DNA from: Maribacter antarcticus DSM 21422 | GTDB taxonomy: Bacteria > Bacteroidota > Bacteroidia > Flavobacteriales > Flavobacteriaceae | Assembly: GCF_000621125.1 (NCBI RefSeq) | Contig: NZ_JHZC01000007.1 | Span: 1 to 64,000, forward strand | DNA length: 64,000 nucleotides | Direction of reading: 5' to 3' | Part shown: piece after piece, positions 39,832-47,447 of the stretch | Position numbering within the stretch: position 1 is the stretch's first letter | Layout: each line of letters opens with the position of its first letter | Notes under the pieces: model-generated | Told to the model about the DNA's origin: nothing | Databases searched by the model: none | Seen by the model: the letters and a program-made list of their open reading frames with translations, nothing else | Program-made: the position numbers and the translations under genes

Positions 39832-41028
39832 CTAATCCTCAAAAAAACCAATAGAGGAGCCTATCCAAGTCTCTTCCGTATTATGAGAAACATTAATCAA
39901 ATCGCCTTTGCTCATACGTCCTAAGTTTGTTACCGGTTTTAGGCGATTTTTCTTCTCGTCCCAGACGTAAAGAATACGTATTTCGCCTTTGGAATTTTTT
40001 TCTGATTTCGTTTTTATCGCAGATGCGTAGGTTACTTTTTCTTGAAGGATATAATTTTCCTTATCCGCAATACCAGCTATTTTTTCTTTGGTTGGGTCTA
40101 AATCAACTCCCAAGCCTGCAAAGGAAAATAGTGGCTTTACTACATAGTTTTTTAGATTAGTATCCAAAGGAAAATCATTCAAATAAAAAGAGTTGGGAAT
40201 GTTCTTATGCTTCAGTTTAGGCATGACGCATTTAGATATCATAAAGAACCAATCCGGATGGGTCACCCACTTCACATCTACGTCATCATTTAAGTTAAAT
40301 TCGGTTTTTAAATCCTTTGTACGCTCAATTTCATCGAAAATTACCCGGTTGTATATTCTGTTGATTTGGGTTTTGACTCCGTCCTTAACATAGAATAACT
40401 TTTTACCCTCTTTGCTGATTTTAGTCATACAAACCACTTCGATACCCAAGGCTTTTTTTGTTGCCCAAAAATCAATTCGTGTTTTTTGTTTTTCTGGATA
40501 TAACTCCATTAAAATAACATTTTCAGGCTTTTCATCGGCAATAATAACATCTCGCACTTCCTTTATGTACTGTACTTCATCCAAGTCACTAAAGAAATAA
40601 CGAAATCCCTCTTTAGGCATGGCCGGATAGTTATTCAAAAATGCTTTGCCTAAAAAGGGCTGATAAAAAAATAGGGTTGGGAACGCCTGTAACTCTATTA
40701 ATTGCGGGGTAATACCACCACTGCCATCTTCACAAAGTCCAAAATCGATGGCCAAAAAGTGCGGTTTTCCTATGTTGGATGGCGATTGTATTTCCTTGGT
40801 AACGAACTGATTACGGATTTTATCGAAATCAAATTGCCCCAATTGGTATATGATGCTCTTACAGGCATCAAAAATTTCTTCCTTTACTTGCTTACTGATA
40901 AATATCGGTGTTTCCGACAAGCGGAAGGCCGTTCCTTCGCCATAAGTATCCACGATTTCCTTTTTCAGGTTTTCGTAATACTCCTGTTTAAATCCTACAT
41001 TGAACTGTTCCCTGATTTTTGATATCAT
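39832..41028 (-). CDS. ATP-grasp ligase of the amidoligase cluster (second copy)
   Basis: A 398-residue soluble protein. The C-terminal half looks like an ATP-grasp domain: KNYVVKPLFSFAGLGVDLD (about 295-313) supplies the ATP-binding lysine and loop, and YILQEKV followed by GEIRILYVWDE the later strands. The N-terminal half is specific to this family. It would join a carboxylate to an amine using ATP; substrates are unknown. Its ATG overlaps the amidotransferase stop (ATGA, 41025-41028), so the two are translationally coupled. It is the last gene of the cluster and appears intact. Confidence 0.75.
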   Translation of the reverse strand: MISKIREQFNVGFKQEYYENLKKEIVDTYGEGTAFRLSETPIFISKQVKEEIFDACKSIIYQLGQFDFDKIRNQFVTKEIQSPSNIGKPHFLAIDFGLCEDGSGGITPQLIELQAFPTLFFYQPFLGKAFLNNYPAMPKEGFRYFFSDLDEVQYIKEVRDVIIADEKPENVILMELYPEKQKTRIDFWATKKALGIEVVCMTKISKEGKKLFYVKDGVKTQINRIYNRVIFDEIERTKDLKTEFNLNDDVDVKWVTHPDWFFMISKCVMPKLKHKNIPNSFYLNDFPLDTNLKNYVVKPLFSFAGLGVDLDPTKEKIAGIADKENYILQEKVTYASAIKTKSEKNSKGEIRILYVWDEKKNRLKPVTNLGRMSKGDLINVSHNTEETWIGSSIGFFED

Positions 41029-41864
41029 ACCAACTGTGATTTTTCTTGCTGAATAGCTTCTGCCGCTAATTTTAGAAACCTAGGGATAATAACAGCATTT
41101 GTTTTCATAATCTTATCATCATCATTAAGATGTTCCAACATGTTTTTATATTTCCTTGGTCCATGTTTTTTGATTACGACAGCCTTTTTATCCTCGCGTT
41201 CAAAATAGCGTGTCATCCCCTCGGCATCTGCCTCTGGATGAAACTGGGTGCCAAATATTTCATTGGAAAAACGAATAGCCATCACAGCGCGCTCTAAGGC
41301 TACGTTTGGCCTGTTCTTCTCAATACACAACACCTTTCCGTCTAAAGAGTCAAATTTCCACTCCTTGGGACCCACCACTTGATAATCCCTCGAATCTACA
41401 GCGTAAAAAGGGTCGTCCAAATCTTGGAACAACACCTCGTGCTCGCCACTTTTCGTTTTATACATAGGTAAAACCCCAAAGGAAGTAGACCTGCGTTTTG
41501 TTACCCTAGCTAAATCCCAATGCAAACATGCCAATTGAAAAGAATGACAAATAAGAAAAAGATGCTTTTTACTGGGTTTAAAAAGATTGTGCAGCAATAC
41601 GGCATCCAAGAAATTAAAATAGGCATTCTCCCATGGCTCGCCTACAATTAATGGTGTTCCAGGACCACCAGACGATATAAACATATCATAGTCTTTAATT
41701 TTGGGTATTTGGTTTTTGACACGAACATCAAAAATATCGTAACTACCTTTAATCGTCTTCTGATCTAAAAACTGTTCTACCAGCATAGTAATACAGCGCA
41801 TGCCTTCATTAGCGTGCCCAGCATTCATGTCTAGAACAGCAATTTTATATTTTATATTCATCAA
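41025..41864 (-). CDS. Class I glutamine amidotransferase-like protein
   Basis: A 279-residue protein with a GATase-I triad: nucleophile C106 in LICHSFQLAC, H209 and E211 in GTQFHPEAD. The oxyanion strand SSGGPGTP (64-71) is also present. Such domains release ammonia from glutamine, or in some families cut gamma-glutamyl amide bonds. In this cluster it could supply ammonia to, or edit, an amide product. It is coupled to the ATP-grasp gene downstream and lies 58 bp after the broken carboxylate-amine ligase gene. Confidence 0.85.
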   Translation of the reverse strand: MMNIKYKIAVLDMNAGHANEGMRCITMLVEQFLDQKTIKGSYDIFDVRVKNQIPKIKDYDMFISSGGPGTPLIVGEPWENAYFNFLDAVLLHNLFKPSKKHLFLICHSFQLACLHWDLARVTKRRSTSFGVLPMYKTKSGEHEVLFQDLDDPFYAVDSRDYQVVGPKEWKFDSLDGKVLCIEKNRPNVALERAVMAIRFSNEIFGTQFHPEADAEGMTRYFEREDKKAVVIKKHGPRKYKNMLEHLNDDDKIMKTNAVIIPRFLKLAAEAIQQEKSQLV

Positions 41865-41922
41865 TTATTTGTCTCTATAGCTAACGTGAAAAAATTGGTT
41901 TACGTTTAAACCAAGGTCAGTA

Positions 41923-43019
41923 TTACAATCCTTTTTTTGTCTGGCCCACTACATATTCCATCACTTTCTTAAGGTCATTGGAGTCTTCATAGACCTTTAA
42001 CTGCCTATCTGCTCCAGAACCTTGTTCCAGCATCTGATATACATAGTTTACTTCGGTACGGCAACCGAGTTCGTCCACAACATCATCAATAAATTCCAAC
42101 AGTTCGTTAATCAACACAGGAAAGGCCACTTCTTCCTGCCGTCCAAAATCTATAAGTTTAGCATCTACGCCCCAGCGAGCCGCACGCCATTTATTTTCAT
42201 TAATTAAAATACGTCTATACGACCTAAAACTTTGATTTTTTTGATGCAATTTGCTCAATTTAGCAATGATGCACTGCATTAGGGCTGCAACGCACATGAC
42301 CTCATCAACCGTCATAATCATATCACAAACCCTAAACTCTACCGTTGGATAAAATGTATGCAAACGAATATCCCACCAAATTTTTTTACCATTATCTATA
42401 CAATTTGTCTTCACCAAAAGATTTACAAAATCATCGTACTGCGGAACACTGACAAAATAAGGTAGAATTCCAGTCCTAGGGAATTTATCAAAAATCTTGG
42501 ATCGGAACGATTTGAACTCTGTATCCCTACCTTCCCAAAATGGCGAGTTGTTAGACAGAGCATATAAATGTGGTAAAAAGTAGCGGGCTACGTTCATAAT
42601 CTGCAAGCCCTCTTCCCTACTTGGAATAGCAACATGCACGTGCATTCCAAAAATGAGGTTGGAACGGGCAACATCTTTCATCTCATGGATTAGCTGATCG
42701 TATCTTGGATTTGGAGTAATCAATTGCACACTCCAATGGGAATAAGGGTGGGTTCCTGATGCGGCAACCTCCAAGCCTTCCTTTGCGGCCAATTCAAAAA
42801 TCTGCTGTCTTAAATAAGAAACCTCATCCCTAGCCTGACTAATATTCTCGCAAATATTAGTGCCCATTTCTACCATGGACTGGTGCGTCTCTTCTTAATA
42901 CGCTCCTGTAAAAAAACTTTTCCACCATCAATGATTTTTGACATTTGGGAATGAAGCTTTAAGCTATCGCTATCCAGAATCTGAAATTCTTCCTCTATTC
43001 CCAGTGTGAATTTGTGCAT
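41923..43019 (-). pseudogene. Carboxylate-amine ligase (GCS2/YbdK family), frameshifted
   Basis: The family N-terminus reads from ATG 43019: MHKFTLGIEEEFQILDSDSL up to RIKK at about codon 43. One base is then missing in AAGAAGAGACG (about 42888-42897). Restoring it gives KETHQSMVEMGTN, and the frame runs on for 317 codons (GMHVHVAI, PTVEFRVCDMIMTVDEV) to the stop at 41923. The missing N-terminal part includes the GIEEEF metal/ATP strand, so the 317-codon piece starting at 42876 should be inactive. The family ligates glutamate-like carboxylates to amines. A sequencing error cannot be excluded. Confidence 0.85.
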
Positions 43020-43049
43020 CTCTCTTTTGCTTTTAAAGATATATCTAAA

Positions 43050-44185
43050 TTATTTTGTTTTTTTTGAAGCAGACTTCACTTTTGCTGGCGTTTTTTTGAC
43101 GGCTGTTTTTGGTTTTGTATTAGTCTTTTTAGCTGCGGCCGATTTCGTCTCTGGTGTAATCGCTTTTTTAATAACAGTTTTCTTTGCTTGAGCAGCCGTT
43201 TTTAATGAACTTTTTTTGACTACAGGCGTTACCGGAGTGGAAGCATCCCTTACATACGAACCCCAAGAAGTTACATTCTTTTTTGGTTTATGGGCCTTTG
43301 CTTTTTCAATAGCAAGTTTGGCGGAATGTTCCACAATCCAATCAAAATTCTCTTGCCCAACGGAATTAATATCCGCATCTGAAGCTGGATTACAAAAATC
43401 AATAGCATAAGGAATACCATTACGAATAGCGAACTCTACCGTATTAAAATCATACCCAAATGTTTTGTTTAGTTTCAAAGTATAATCGGTAATGGTCTTC
43501 ATCAATTTTGTATGCTCCGCACCTGTAGTCTTTGGTTTTGTAGCATAACGTGCATGAAATTCGTTCCGTGGCTCATACGGCATAATATGAACCTATTTTT
43601 GACCCAAACAGTACACTCTGTAGTTGTCTTCAAACTCAATTTCTTCCTGTAATAACATGACCAACTGTCCGGTTTCTTCCAAACATTCAAAAAGCTTTTC
43701 TGCATTCTCTACTTTGTATACATTTTTCCATCCACCACCATCATGAGGTTTCATGTACGCTGGAAACCCGATGTAATCAAACATATACTCCCAAACCAAA
43801 GGCGCTTTTAAATTTCTAAAAGAGGTCTCTAAGGTGTCGTCTGGTCGCTCTTTCGACGGCAACAATACAGTCTTGGAGACAGGAACTCCTAATTCCATAG
43901 CCAAGCAGTTATTAAAAAATTTTTCGTCGGCACTCCACCAAAAAGGATTGTTGATTACTGCAGACCCCATCAAGGATGCGTTTTTTAAATACGCGCGATA
44001 AAAGGGAACACTCTGCGAAATACAATCAATGATTACGTGGTATCCATAATCAATACCCTGTTGTAATTTATCGATTTGGACGGCTTCAGCGATAATTTCG
44101 CATTTGCCCATTTCGTTTACCTTGTCTATAAATGCCCATGGGAAAGTGTCTTCCATCCCAAATAATATACCTACTTTTTTTTCAT
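43050..44185 (-). pseudogene. ATP-grasp ligase with Lys/Ala-rich tail, start frameshift plus nonsense codon
   Basis: The natural start ATG 44185-44183 is followed by 8 A; nine would give MKKKVGILFGMEDTFPWAF, in frame with the rest. With eight, translation ends at once, and the next ATG is 44156. The frame then reads to LQEEIEFEDNYRVYCLGQK and hits TAG at 43595-43593. The same frame continues VHIMPYEPRNEFHARYATKP, DYTLKLNKTFGYDFNTVEFA and FCNPASDADINSVGQENFDW. After about residue 320 comes a Lys/Ala/Pro-rich histone-H1-like tail to the stop at 43050. So there are two independent lesions in one ATP-grasp gene. Confidence 0.82.
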
Positions 44186-44204
44186 AATTACTTTGATTTT
44201 TAGC

Positions 44205-44236
44205 ATTCCTGCAAAAACAGGAATCTCTTTTTTGTT
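44205..44236 (+). terminator. Terminator-like palindrome between the cluster esterase and ATP-grasp genes
   Basis: ATTCCTG and CAGGAAT form a perfect 7-bp stem around CAAAAA, followed on the + strand by CTCTTTTTTG. On the minus strand, the direction of the flanking genes, there is no T run. It resembles short intergenic palindromes (ATTCCTG...CAGGAATCT) that I associate with flavobacterial genomes. It may limit antisense transcription or simply be a repeat. Confidence 0.45.
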
Positions 44237-44286
44237 TTTATAAATATTTAGTTTTGCTTGATTACTGCATACAAGAGCAAACTACC

Positions 44287-44943
44287 TTAAAAGTACTTTC
44301 CTAGATATTCTGGGAACATCATTTTCCATAAAGGCCATTCGTGATCTTGCCATTTTTTCTCATCGTACCAATGCGTTATTTCTTTTCTATTCAAAATACC
44401 CGACATGTGTTTGTTTTTATCCAAGCAAATATCCCAATCCGAGGTACCCAAAACAATCTGCATGTGATTATATTTCCAAGGTTCCTCATTCTCCATATAC
44501 TCAGCCGGACAATTGAAATAAATACGGATGTCCTCTGAATACGGAGTCATATTTCTAATGCTAAACACAGCGCTCATCGCTATTAAATGAGAAACCAAAT
44601 CTGGAAAACGAAAAGCCACGTTAGCCGCATGGAAACCTCCAAAACTAACTGCGGCCACTCCTATCCTGTGTACATTACATTCTTTTTGAACATGCGGAAT
44701 GAATTCGTCCTTTACAAATTTCATATACAATTCGTAATTATGGGTTTTGGCTTCCAAATCCATATTGTCGTCATAGAAAGACAACATATCTATCGTTTCT
44801 ACATTGTAGAGTTTAACCTTGCCTTCTTCCATCAAGTGCATGACGGAGGCGTTCAATTCAAAATCTGTATTCTGCGTATATTGTCCGCCGGAAGAAGGGA
44901 ACATTAAAATGGGATGCCCCCAATGTCCAATAACCTCTACCAT
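44287..44943 (-). CDS. Esterase (alpha/beta hydrolase) of the amidoligase cluster, start codon apparently lost
   Basis: From ATG 44943 the frame gives 218 residues of a putative esterase fold: GHWGHPILMFPSSGGQYTQN at the start and the nucleophile elbow VAAVSFGGFHAAN near 95-107. Coding similarity continues upstream in frame: codons from 44988 read IEHIPYYSNTLGRNI, matching the N-terminus of these esterases, but the first codon is ATT where ATG is expected and TAA precedes it. Either ATT initiates, or translation starts at 44943 with 15 residues missing. The hydrolase may release or proof-read the cluster's product. Confidence 0.75.
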   Translation of the reverse strand: MVEVIGHWGHPILMFPSSGGQYTQNTDFELNASVMHLMEEGKVKLYNVETIDMLSFYDDNMDLEAKTHNYELYMKFVKDEFIPHVQKECNVHRIGVAAVSFGGFHAANVAFRFPDLVSHLIAMSAVFSIRNMTPYSEDIRIYFNCPAEYMENEEPWKYNHMQIVLGTSDWDICLDKNKHMSGILNRKEITHWYDEKKWQDHEWPLWKMMFPEYLGKYF

Positions 44944-45144
44944 TATGTTGCGGCCTAGTGTATTGGAGTAATAAGGAATATGTTCAATTTATCCAAAAGG
45001 ATTAACAGTCAACTATTTAGGGGCGCAAAAGTAATTTTATTTTTAACACAACAAATTTTATTTTTTACTATTCGTTATACTTACACTCGCTTAATTTAAT
45101 ATATAGATTTTATAAGTGCAAAAGGTCTTTTTTTTTCAGAAAAC

Positions 45145-45900
45145 TTGAATAGAAATGTGGGGTTTCGATTTGTAGCTCCTGGCAACTATAGAAAAAGTAA
45201 AGCTTCGTTTCCTGTACTATTAATGAACGATGGTCAAGATTATCAGGCTATAAAGTTGGAAAAAACACTGGTCGAAGCCTTCACAAATACCTGTATAAAA
45301 CCTTTTTGTTACGTTGGAATATCCTGTAATGATAATAGAATTTGCGAATACGGCACCAGCAGCACACCAGATTTTAAAAACCGAGGTAACAAAGCGGCTA
45401 ACTATTCCAAATTCATCATTGAAGAATTTATTCCTTTTTTAAAGTCGGCATTCAGACTCTCCAAAAAACCAGCGGACTGGGTGTTTTGCGGAATGTCTTT
45501 AGGAGGAGTCTCCGCTTTTGACATTATGTACAACCATCCCACCCACTTTAATAAAGTAGGTGTTTTCAGTGGCTCATTTTGGTGGCGAAAAAAGGAATAT
45601 GTAAAAGGGGATAAGATGGATAGGAGCCGCATCGTTTTAGACCTTATTAAAAACAGGGGTTATGTTACCGGTCAAAAATTTTGGTTTCAATGTGGGACTG
45701 CAGATGAAACAGCCGACCGAAATCATAACGGCGTTATTGACGCTATAGATGACACTATGGATGTTATTAAAGAATTAAAAGGGAAGGGATATTCCTATCC
45801 TGGGGACATTACATATCTAGAAATTGATGGCGGTAAACATGATTTGCCAACTTGGGGAAATGCCTTTTCTGCTTTTTTAAAATGGGCATTTAAACACTAG
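45145..45900 (+). CDS. Putative esterase (IroE/Fes-like alpha/beta hydrolase), divergent from the amidoligase cluster
   Basis: A 251-residue protein with LLMNDGQDY, the nucleophile elbow VFCGMSLGGVSAFD (Ser near 117), an acid in CGTADETADRN and a histidine in EIDGGKHDLPTW. The start is uncertain: TTG 45145 is in frame, but family proteins extend further upstream. A GTG at 45116 would be in frame only if the run of nine T at 45128-45136 had one more. It is divergent from the cluster with a shared promoter region of about 110 bp, and it ends 9 bp before the converging DUF2237 gene. Confidence 0.8.
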   Translation: MNRNVGFRFVAPGNYRKSKASFPVLLMNDGQDYQAIKLEKTLVEAFTNTCIKPFCYVGISCNDNRICEYGTSSTPDFKNRGNKAANYSKFIIEEFIPFLKSAFRLSKKPADWVFCGMSLGGVSAFDIMYNHPTHFNKVGVFSGSFWWRKKEYVKGDKMDRSRIVLDLIKNRGYVTGQKFWFQCGTADETADRNHNGVIDAIDDTMDVIKELKGKGYSYPGDITYLEIDGGKHDLPTWGNAFSAFLKWAFKH

Positions 45901-45909
45901 TGGAAACAC

Positions 45910-46278
45910 CTATTCTATTTCATGATTTTTCAAAACTTCCAAGGTAGTATACTCTAGTGCTTTTTTATGCGTAGCCTCCAAGACTATTTTGGGTGCTTTT
46001 TCAACTTTAACTGCCGCTAGCCAGCGCATAATGCAAAGGCACCATTTATCTCCTTCTTTTAATCCAGGGAAACTCCATTGTGGTATTGGAGTTGAGAGGT
46101 CATTTCCTTTGGATTTAGTGTATTCCAAAAATTCATTAGTCATAATCGCGCAGACCACATGAGTACCATAATCCTCTTCTCCCGTTTTACAAAATCCGTC
46201 CCTGTAAAAGCCTGTTTTGGGTTCAAAACAACACGGACATAAATCTGTTCCTAAAACGTTTTTTGATTTCTTTTCCAT
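45910..46278 (-). CDS. DUF2237 family protein
   Basis: A 122-residue soluble protein with the DUF2237 hallmarks: NVLGTDLCPCCFEPKTGFYR at the start, GTHVVCAIMTNEFLEYTKSK in the middle and KWCLCIMRWLAA toward the end. The conserved cysteines suggest a metal or redox site. Function unknown. Its start overlaps the end of the secreted unknown at 46251 by 28 bp. Confidence 0.92.
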   Translation of the reverse strand: MEKKSKNVLGTDLCPCCFEPKTGFYRDGFCKTGEEDYGTHVVCAIMTNEFLEYTKSKGNDLSTPIPQWSFPGLKEGDKWCLCIMRWLAAVKVEKAPKIVLEATHKKALEYTTLEVLKNHEIE

Positions 46279-46859
46279 TCGTTATAAAAAGTAGCGACTT
46301 CATGAGCGCTTTTTAATTCCTTGTTTCTAATTTTAACAGCTAAAATAGGACAATCACTAAAAAAAACAGCTAGGCGTTTTTTTCTTAATCCAAAAATACC
46401 TTGGGTAGTGCGCACCAACTCGGTACCATTTCTTTTTTTGAAATAGGAGAAATGATCATAGTATCCAGAATCTGCGTCTTGAAATTCTAATACATAATGA
46501 TTTACATACCCTTGGTTTATTACCCTTATAAATACCCTTTCTTTCTCATTTGAGCTTATATTATAATCTTGATTTAAAAAACCAATTTTACTAGCTAAAC
46601 CAATGCTTTCAAAAAACATTTCGCCCTTTTTGTATGCTAGTATTTCATGTGGGCCGTACCTCGATTTACCTTTTCCTTTATGTCTAATTTTTTTATATAT
46701 TTTCCCAAAAGGATCCGGTTTTCGGTCTTTAATTAACCCCGTAATCGTATCTCCGTTATTCAATACAATAAAACCCTCTTCAAAGTGCTTCTGGGCGAGT
46801 ATCGGTATTGAATAGAATAAAAGTAAGATGCATGTAATACCAAAATACTTATTTCCCAT
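46251..46859 (-). CDS. Secreted protein of unknown function, tandem paralogue A
   Basis: A 202-residue protein with a signal peptide (CILLLFYSIPILAQ, cut near 22). The mature part begins KHFEEGFIVLNNGDTITGLI and ends with RTTQGIFGLRKKRLAVFFSD and CP, a pattern shared with the next upstream gene. The two differ in about two thirds of positions but keep the same motif order, which points to an old tandem duplication. The beta-rich N-terminal repeat is seen in secreted flavobacterial proteins of unknown role. Confidence 0.7.
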   Translation of the reverse strand: MGNKYFGITCILLLFYSIPILAQKHFEEGFIVLNNGDTITGLIKDRKPDPFGKIYKKIRHKGKGKSRYGPHEILAYKKGEMFFESIGLASKIGFLNQDYNISSNEKERVFIRVINQGYVNHYVLEFQDADSGYYDHFSYFKKRNGTELVRTTQGIFGLRKKRLAVFFSDCPILAVKIRNKELKSAHEVATFYNEWKRNQKTF

Positions 46860-46880: not shown

Positions 46881-47447
46881 TTAGAGGTCTATTTTGCAGG
46901 TATTGTAAAAATCAACTATTTGAAATACATAGCGAAACTCTCTATTTAGAAATTTTTGAGAAAGTCCTGGGCAATCATTTAATAAGTGTGCAAGTCTCTT
47001 TTTTTTAATTCCGAAAACACCTTGACTAGCTCTTATAAAACGAGTGCTCTTTCCCTTTTGAACAAAATCTATATCTTGCACTAGGGATTCGCCTTGCTTT
47101 TGAATTTCCATTATATAGTGGTTCAGATACCCTTCTGAACCAACCCTATAGAATATTTTTTTGCTTCCACTAAAAAAACCATTGTACTGCGTGTCGCCAA
47201 TTTTATACGATTGAATATCGCTTGAGGCAAAACGCTTTTTTCGACTTTTTTCTTTAAATCGAATCTTTTCATAGCGTCCTAAATCGAACCCCTTCGTGTC
47301 GCTATCCCTAGTTTTACCGTATAGCGTGTCATTAGAATTAGTAACAATATGGCCCTCTTGAAAATCATCTTGAGCAGTACCATAAGATGAACCAAATAAA
47401 ATTACAAAGAGAAATAGTCCAAAAAATAAAGTAGTAGCCTTAATCAT
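46881..47447 (-). CDS. Secreted protein of unknown function, tandem paralogue B
   Basis: A 188-residue protein with a signal peptide (FGLFLFVILFGSSYGTAQ). It shares with the downstream gene FQEGHIVTNSNDTLYGK, YEKIRFKEKSRKKRF, SEGYLNHYIMEIQ and RASQGVFGIKKKRLA, then a conserved DCP. A single conserved cysteine remains in the mature part of each, so disulfide bridging within the protein is unlikely. It is 21 bp upstream of paralogue A and follows the acyltransferase gene by 2 bp. Confidence 0.7.
   Translation of the reverse strand: MIKATTLFFGLFLFVILFGSSYGTAQDDFQEGHIVTNSNDTLYGKTRDSDTKGFDLGRYEKIRFKEKSRKKRFASSDIQSYKIGDTQYNGFFSGSKKIFYRVGSEGYLNHYIMEIQKQGESLVQDIDFVQKGKSTRFIRASQGVFGIKKKRLAHLLNDCPGLSQKFLNREFRYVFQIVDFYNTCKIDL

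Follow-up and report, generated by a model that had tools for sequence, protein, structure and literature searches.

Three co-inherited ATP-dependent ligases in a Bacteroidota gene cluster that is degenerating in Maribacter antarcticus

Relationship to described ligase systems

Neighbourhoods linking ligases, peptidases and hydrolases were reportedly described in the amidoligase survey of Iyer et al. (2009) and resemble the gene cluster considered here, which lies at positions 39832-45900 of a 64,000-nucleotide stretch of Maribacter antarcticus DSM 21422 (contig NZ_JHZC01000007.1, positions 1 to 64,000; hereafter the window). The cluster consists of six genes, encoding 2 predicted ATP-grasp ligases (grasp1 and grasp2), a carboxylate-amine ligase (GCS2), a protein of the class I glutamine amidotransferase (GATase) fold (GAT) and 2 alpha/beta hydrolases (est1 and est2). 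In the window, grasp2, GAT, GCS2, grasp1 and est1 occupy the minus strand and est2 is divergent on the plus strand. The first-pass annotation of this DNA had described six adjacent genes, and their content, order, strand and coordinates all hold.

As stated in an excerpt of one study (PMC4431377), in which that survey is cited, ligases arranged serially in one neighbourhood often form the successive peptide bonds of metabolites or cofactors. The nearest characterized relatives differ from gene to gene. The grasp2 protein shares 12-14% identity with YgiC/YjfC and Gss of E. coli (GSP_synth, circularly permuted ATP-grasp) and 9-12% with the eukaryotic glutathione/homoglutathione synthetases and the fungal Cp1B of E-64 biosynthesis, with which no common gene context was found. 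Peptide-spermidine ligase activity of YgiC/YjfC is given as a statement with a reference in the excerpted text of PMC12568646, and likewise in the RefSeq product name of YgiC; the same excerpt indicates, through Cp1B, that the grasp2 fold takes non-amino-acid carboxylates too (PMC12568646). The GCS2 protein resembles the YbdK/PRK13515 carboxylate-amine ligases, scoring above both cut-offs, whereas grasp1, compared with the ATP-grasp ligases RimK/LysX/ArgX and the D-Ala-D-Ala ligases, falls far below the cut-off of TIGR00768. No description of this cluster was found among the literature matches listed (open-licence papers, titles and abstract starts). PMC12239564 deals with another operon that combines an ATP-grasp and a peptidase.

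Three ligases co-occur across Bacteroidota

We searched 395 Bacteroidota genomes with a profile of each gene, using E value thresholds of 1e-3 for grasp2, 1e-30 for grasp1, 1e-60 for GCS2 and 1e-40 for GAT, which yielded 114, 134, 129 and 86 positive genomes, respectively. The presence of grasp2 closely tracked that of grasp1 (both genes in 110 genomes, grasp2 only in 4, grasp1 only in 24, neither in 257; phi 0.84) and of GCS2 (both in 109, grasp2 only in 5, GCS2 only in 20, neither in 261; phi 0.86); the corresponding figures for GAT were 69, 45, 17 and 264 (phi 0.60). All 3 ligases were encoded in 105 of the 114 grasp2 genomes, that is, in 105 of 395, or about 27% of the sample. In the window's own family (f1), the sets of genomes with grasp2, GCS2 and GAT were the same 8, and grasp1 was present in 7 of the 8.

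To describe the gene neighbourhoods, we hand-chose 60 loci for diversity from the 114 grasp2 genomes, so that the proportions among these phylum loci are descriptive. All 5 core genes (est1, grasp1, GCS2, GAT and grasp2) were clustered in 14 of the 60 and the 3 ligases in 29 (18 with GAT and 11 without), whereas in 21 loci grasp2 was the only one of the five on its strand. In the genomes of these 21, grasp1 was nevertheless encoded elsewhere in all 21 and GCS2 in 19 (the misses being G439 and G406). In 24 genomes picked as unlinked examples, the ligases are located on another contig or more than 50 kb apart. The presence of the same 3 ligases even where their genes lie far apart is the pattern expected of a shared pathway rather than of a passing gene cluster. 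Thus, the proposal that the six genes form a unit is borne out in part: they are conserved together outside this strain, but the co-inherited core consists of the 3 ligases, with the GATase-fold protein and the esterases being less constant.

Conserved layout of the cluster

The features of the window locus are as follows.

39832-41028, minus strand: grasp2, predicted circularly permuted ATP-grasp ligase of 398 aa, intact
41025-41861, minus strand: GAT, class I glutamine amidotransferase-fold protein, intact (PF00117, triad, ATGA overlap with grasp2)
41923-43019, minus strand: GCS2, YbdK/PRK13515-type carboxylate-amine ligase, with a frameshift near 42891-42894
43050-44180, minus strand: grasp1, predicted ATP-grasp ligase, with an in-frame TAG at 43593-43595 and a Lys/Ala-rich tail at 43053-43259
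44287-44988, minus strand: est1, alpha/beta hydrolase (PF00756), start region lost
44989-45102, no strand assigned: putative divergent promoter region with TACTTTTG and TATACTTACA elements
45103-45900, plus strand: est2, divergent alpha/beta hydrolase (PF00756), start region lost

We compared this layout with 29 near loci from Maribacter, Aureibaculum, Cerina, Pricia, Dokdonia, Leeuwenhoekiella and other genomes of the family or order; six duplicates and L032, in which the contig is cut inside GCS2, were left out, and L060 was counted although broken. The five-gene core est1-grasp1-GCS2-GAT-grasp2 was present in all 29 and an est2-like gene in 27. Gene order and strand agreed in 43 of the 43 loci holding all 5 core genes; the arrangement is thus far beyond chance. 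The distance matrices of the 5 genes correlate at r 0.75-0.94, the permutation maximum being 0.25. GAT immediately precedes grasp2 in 29/29 near loci and 28/60 phylum loci, and the coupling of the amidotransferase and ATP-grasp genes by an ATGA overlap, noted earlier for the window, is indeed present there, the gap being −4 in 19 of the 29 near loci. An alternative start of GAT is the TTG at 41864. Five loci (L033 and L112-L115) carry a same-strand array of eight genes, namely, est2-like, M17 aminopeptidase, a third ATP-grasp, est1, grasp1, GCS2, GAT and grasp2 (domains assigned on the homologues in L042); for the third ATP-grasp, the window's genome gave only a weak match (E 2.5e-4).

The spacer between est1 and est2 measures 123-126 bp in 13 of 18 relatives, and these 13 were aligned with the window (n = 14). 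In the window, TACTTTTG at 45026-45033 on the minus strand faces est1 and TATACTTACA at 45076-45085 on the plus strand faces est2. The motif TAnnTTTG, which we take to be the Bacteroidota −7 element, recurs in 11 of the 14 aligned spacers, its opposite-side counterpart AAGTATA in 13, and TGCAAGTATA is found exactly in 10. A shared, divergent promoter region, as had been suggested in the first-pass annotation, is plausible on these motifs.

Predicted activities of the ligases and esterases

The grasp2 protein is predicted to be a circularly permuted ligase with the fold of glutathionylspermidine/glutathione synthetases over its whole chain, which refines the earlier designation as a second ATP-grasp protein. 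Neither grasp1 nor grasp2 of the window matched a Pfam family above its cut-off, and the GSP_synth family proper (PF03738) was not reached by a relative of grasp2 either (L089, 16.2 versus 29.3 bits). Compared with YgiC/YjfC/Gss, grasp2 has Gln in place of Asn, has no Pfam match in the window protein, stands in a cluster with further ligases and is missing, in 89 of 89 sequences, the arginine of the RxD motif, which is R316 in Gss and R100 in YgiC. The residues at this place, in a register set by motif rather than by superposition, are A (42), Q (25), V (9), T (6), I (3), G (2), S (1) and C (1). In one locus (L088, 7637-10240), a single 867-aa frame joins an SSF sodium:solute symporter (residues 32-414) to grasp2 (residues 477-865), and another (L142) has a separate SSF gene that precedes grasp2 by 18 bp. 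Amidohydro_3-type amidohydrolases are found near grasp2 or GAT in seven loci (L090, L093, L094, L102, L128, L131 and L198) and overlap grasp2 by 4 bp in L090 and L093.

The grasp1 protein has a predicted ATP-grasp fold, with RimK as the top VIA match by a small margin; families missing from the structure match lists carry no evidential weight. Its NCBIfam similarities, to RimK, LysX and Ddl, are all below threshold (22.6-28.2 versus 143.4 bits for RimK TIGR00768). Hence, neither ATP-grasp protein falls above the cut-off of a named family in Pfam or NCBIfam, and assignment to a housekeeping family, which would have undermined the earlier interpretation, was not obtained. In the Maribacter-type group, grasp1 ends in a Lys/Ala/Thr-rich, histone-H1-like C-terminal tail of 48-167 residues (69 in the window), which many complete clusters lack and scattered others, such as L044 and L119, have.

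The larger piece of the window GCS2 belongs to PRK13515 (471.3 versus 371 bits) and TIGR02050 (YbdK; 267.1 versus 176.4 bits), as does an intact relative (546.5 and 317.5 bits, respectively), in agreement with the GCS2-type ligase recognized earlier. The protein remained below the cut-off of every glutamate-cysteine ligase model of NCBIfam that it matched, the nearest scores being 361.4 versus 409 and 315.7 versus 332 bits (intact relative). The 2 hydrolases seen in the first pass are members of PF00756 (26.2 and 82.1 bits; cut-off 22 bits).

The GATase-fold protein and its replacements

GAT belongs to the class I GATase fold (PF00117, 29.1 versus 22.8 bits), and the intact Cys-His-Glu triad attributed to it stands, C105, H208 and E210 being conserved without exception in the 23 sequences compared; homoserine O-succinyltransferase (PF04204) scored below its cut-off (16.6 versus 27 bits). 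In 3 loci (L100, L103 and L106), GCS2 is followed by an M29-type metallopeptidase (PF02073 above cut-off). A model built from these 3 proteins was searched against 80 three-ligase genomes, with orthologues defined by E below 1e-150. Orthologues were found in 8 of 41 GAT-less versus 0 of 39 GAT-bearing genomes (Fisher p 0.005, 3 of the 8 being the source of the model), whereas weaker paralogues (E 1e-26 to 1e-37) occurred in both. In 7 of the 8, the gene lies between GCS2 and grasp2, 23-76 bp downstream of the former and 18-958 bp upstream of the latter. One orthologue-bearing genome (G527) belongs to a family (f49) whose other eight grasp2 genomes all have GAT. Because a peptidase occupies the GAT slot in some genomes, GAT more probably acts as a hydrolase than as a supplier of ammonia. 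The idea of GAT being merely dispensable had to be narrowed: among the 11 three-ligase loci without linked GAT, 6 belong to genomes with GAT elsewhere (L135, L136, L137, L140, L145 and L146).

The ATP-grasp position appears to be exchangeable as well. In 24 genomes grasp1 occurs without grasp2, and loci were read from nine of them. Eight of these loci contain both grasp1 and GAT, and in 7 of them (L181-L184 and L186-L188) the two are separated by a gene for a protein of approximately 460 aa, L185 being not resolved. In L189, where GAT is found on a separate contig, grasp1 is followed by a member of this family too. The family represents another kind of circularly permuted ATP-grasp: of the 3 members scanned, that of L184 scored above the PF14403 cut-off, that of L182 scored below it and that of L183 had no match; the seven other members align to that of L184 at 51-56% identity. 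In hhalign comparisons, this family shares only the common ATP-binding core with grasp2. It seems, from these gene neighbourhoods, that grasp1 requires a permuted ATP-grasp partner, whichever family supplies it.

Presence, absence and decay in Maribacter

The riboflavin synthase gene that neighbours the cluster is present in 35 of the 36 Maribacter genomes searched, the window's own included. Among the 30 Maribacter loci read, grasp2 stands beside riboflavin synthase in 5, including the window; in 23, the stretch contains DUF5009 or SSF genes but not grasp2, and 2 could not be assigned. In three of the 23, DUF2237 and one more gene lie in between, and one (L170) has an unassigned gap there. 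Genome-wide, GCS2 of the cluster type was found in 7 of 24 other Maribacter genomes, one copy being a fragment. Thus, in the Maribacter loci read, the cluster comes and goes as a unit, all-or-none, at one site; it is accessory in this genus and widespread in the phylum. The SSF and DUF5009 genes adjoining the Maribacter cluster were rejected as parts of it because both also flank the empty site. Two neighbouring, similar uncharacterised genes (46251-46859 and 46881-47447) lie by DUF2237 (45910-46278) in the window, whereas three Maribacter loci without the cluster (L153, L168 and L172) have only a single homologue, located between DUF5009 and DUF2237.

The window locus is a degenerating copy of the cluster. 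The grasp1 gene contains an in-frame stop, and GCS2 is broken by a frameshift, its pieces 42891-43019 and 41926-42894 aligning to relatives in different frames, whereas the reading frames of GAT and grasp2 are open. Compared with the closest relative, L026, the start regions of est1 and est2 have been deleted, although later start codons could still yield shortened proteins. The six genes reported in the first-pass annotation are therefore present in the described order but do not constitute a working set; intact copies are found in other Maribacter (L026-L031). When 11 open reading frames of M. orientalis were used as queries for the flanks, 9 had a window protein aligning along almost their entire length and 2 had no match; the adjacent DUF5009 gene is likewise full length, giving 10 flanking proteins that are complete or almost complete. 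The concentration of lesions in the cluster, where 4 of 6 genes are hit as against none of these 10, argues against sequencing error, which is unlikely as the cause of all of them. We also counted amino acid changes specific to the window versus those specific to L026, with L027 as the outgroup: 20 versus 5 in est1, 14 versus 2 in GCS2, 25 versus 13 in est2, 19 versus 9 in grasp1, 14 versus 8 in GAT and 14 versus 13 in grasp2. The excess falls mainly on the 4 damaged genes, as expected after relaxed selection, which with 1 relative and 1 outgroup is suggestive only. In M. halichondriae (L060), the est2 and grasp2 frames are broken, reflecting a second decay event or assembly errors.

A candidate pathway for a small peptide or conjugate

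Collectively, we consider it probable that the cluster encodes a Bacteroidota pathway which, without a ribosome or a nonribosomal peptide synthetase, makes a small peptide, perhaps a gamma-glutamyl one, or a peptide-amine conjugate; the substrates, the order of steps and the product named below are our inference. The 3 ATP-dependent ligases would form successive amide bonds. GCS2 would link an amine to a carboxylate, for which the gamma-carboxylate of glutamate is the likeliest candidate; the RimK/Ddl-type ATP-grasp grasp1 would add a further amino acid; and grasp2 would activate the terminal carboxylate for coupling with an amine or amino acid. A residue, plausibly the gamma-glutamyl group, may be removed by the GATase-fold protein or, in some lineages, by the metallopeptidase that replaces it, and the product may be tailored or recycled by the esterases, together with the M17 aminopeptidase and third ATP-grasp of the extended clusters. 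A small gamma-glutamyl-type peptide or conjugate is favoured because GCS2, RimK/Ddl-type and glutathionylspermidine synthetase folds occur together with peptidases and esterases. Of the short peptide or polyamide system proposed in the first-pass annotation, the peptide/amide pathway remains the best reading, but the window copy is decaying. Several observations weigh against such a pathway. The literature matches listed name no product of the cluster, and the literature seen likewise names no tested substrate for the YbdK/PRK13515 family. The RxD arginine is found in 0 of 89 grasp2 proteins, so the substrates of Gss and YgiC are not transferable. The hydrolytic step is not universal, given that 33 of the 41 GAT-less three-ligase genomes have no M29 orthologue either, and 11 genomes with GCS2 only and 7 with grasp1 only count against a strict unit. 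Finally, the Fisher p values for co-occurrence (7e-68 and 3e-69) ignore shared ancestry and are not to be taken at face value, and thresholds differed between genes. A bolder version, which we hold tentatively and regard as somewhat doubtful, is a phylum-wide, undescribed small molecule made by the 3 co-inherited ligases as a functional counterpart of glutathione or glutathionylspermidine, in which GCS2 would add a gamma-glutamyl group, the GATase-fold protein or an M29-type peptidase would remove it, and grasp2, acting on a different acid, would represent a new enzyme family with the glutathionylspermidine synthetase fold.

Other activities would account for parts of the data. The direct adjacency of GAT and grasp2 with their −4 overlap (19 of 29 near loci), the intact triad and the 4 of 60 phylum loci in which the 2 genes share a strand with no linked grasp1, GCS2 or est1 would suit a two-subunit amidotransferase, with GAT supplying ammonia to grasp2 for conversion of a carboxylate to a primary amide and hence an amidated metabolite; this is rather unlikely, considering that 45 of the 114 grasp2 genomes lack GAT, that a metallopeptidase fills the GAT slot in 7 genomes and that GAT also occurs without grasp2, beside the other circularly permuted ATP-grasp, although the latter could be its partner there. 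We give little credence to a glutathione-like low-molecular-weight thiol, for which GCS2 would produce gamma-Glu-Cys, an ATP-grasp would add a third residue and grasp2 an amine, as in glutathionylspermidine: the GCS2 family and the fold of grasp2 have relatives among the enzymes of glutathione/glutathionylspermidine synthesis, and intact GCS2 comes fairly close to 2 glutamate-cysteine ligase models (361.4 versus 409 and 315.7 versus 332 bits), but it passes YbdK and PRK13515 only, grasp2 has no RxD arginine, and occurrence inside a single genus is patchy. Quite improbable, too, is amine utilization or detoxification resembling the Puu route, with GCS2 glutamylating an amine, a PuuD-like GAT removing the glutamate and the other ligases acting on the resulting acid; the hydrolase slot, the SSF symporter, which forms a fusion with grasp2 in one locus and immediately precedes it in another, and the Amidohydro_3 enzymes that some loci have next to grasp2 or GAT would fit, whereas the identified neighbours include no amine oxidase or aldehyde dehydrogenase (many recurrent neighbour families being left unassigned), and 3 serial ligases resemble building rather than breakdown. 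Protein modification, in which RimK-like grasp1 with its basic tail would tag a protein and the other enzymes build or cut the tag, is highly improbable. RimK is the top VIA match of grasp1, if by a small margin, many grasp1 proteins have Lys-rich tails, and tagging of proteins by paired peptide ligases is predicted in the excerpt of PMC4431377, yet the tail is absent from many grasp1 of otherwise complete clusters, and 2 esterases and GCS2 better suit a small molecule. A defence island was rejected, with PADLOC matching 0 of the 6 intact M. orientalis proteins, as was a plasmid-borne cluster, for which tblastn of grasp2 against the plasmid set gave no match.

For the pathway leading to a small peptide or conjugate, the Maribacter site, where the cluster is present or absent and natural knock-outs are available, makes direct testing feasible. 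For one of the 3 co-inherited ligases, no Pfam or NCBIfam model scored above its cut-off. Should the 3 ligases indeed make a single compound, this large and environmentally important phylum would have a conserved metabolite that is still undescribed.

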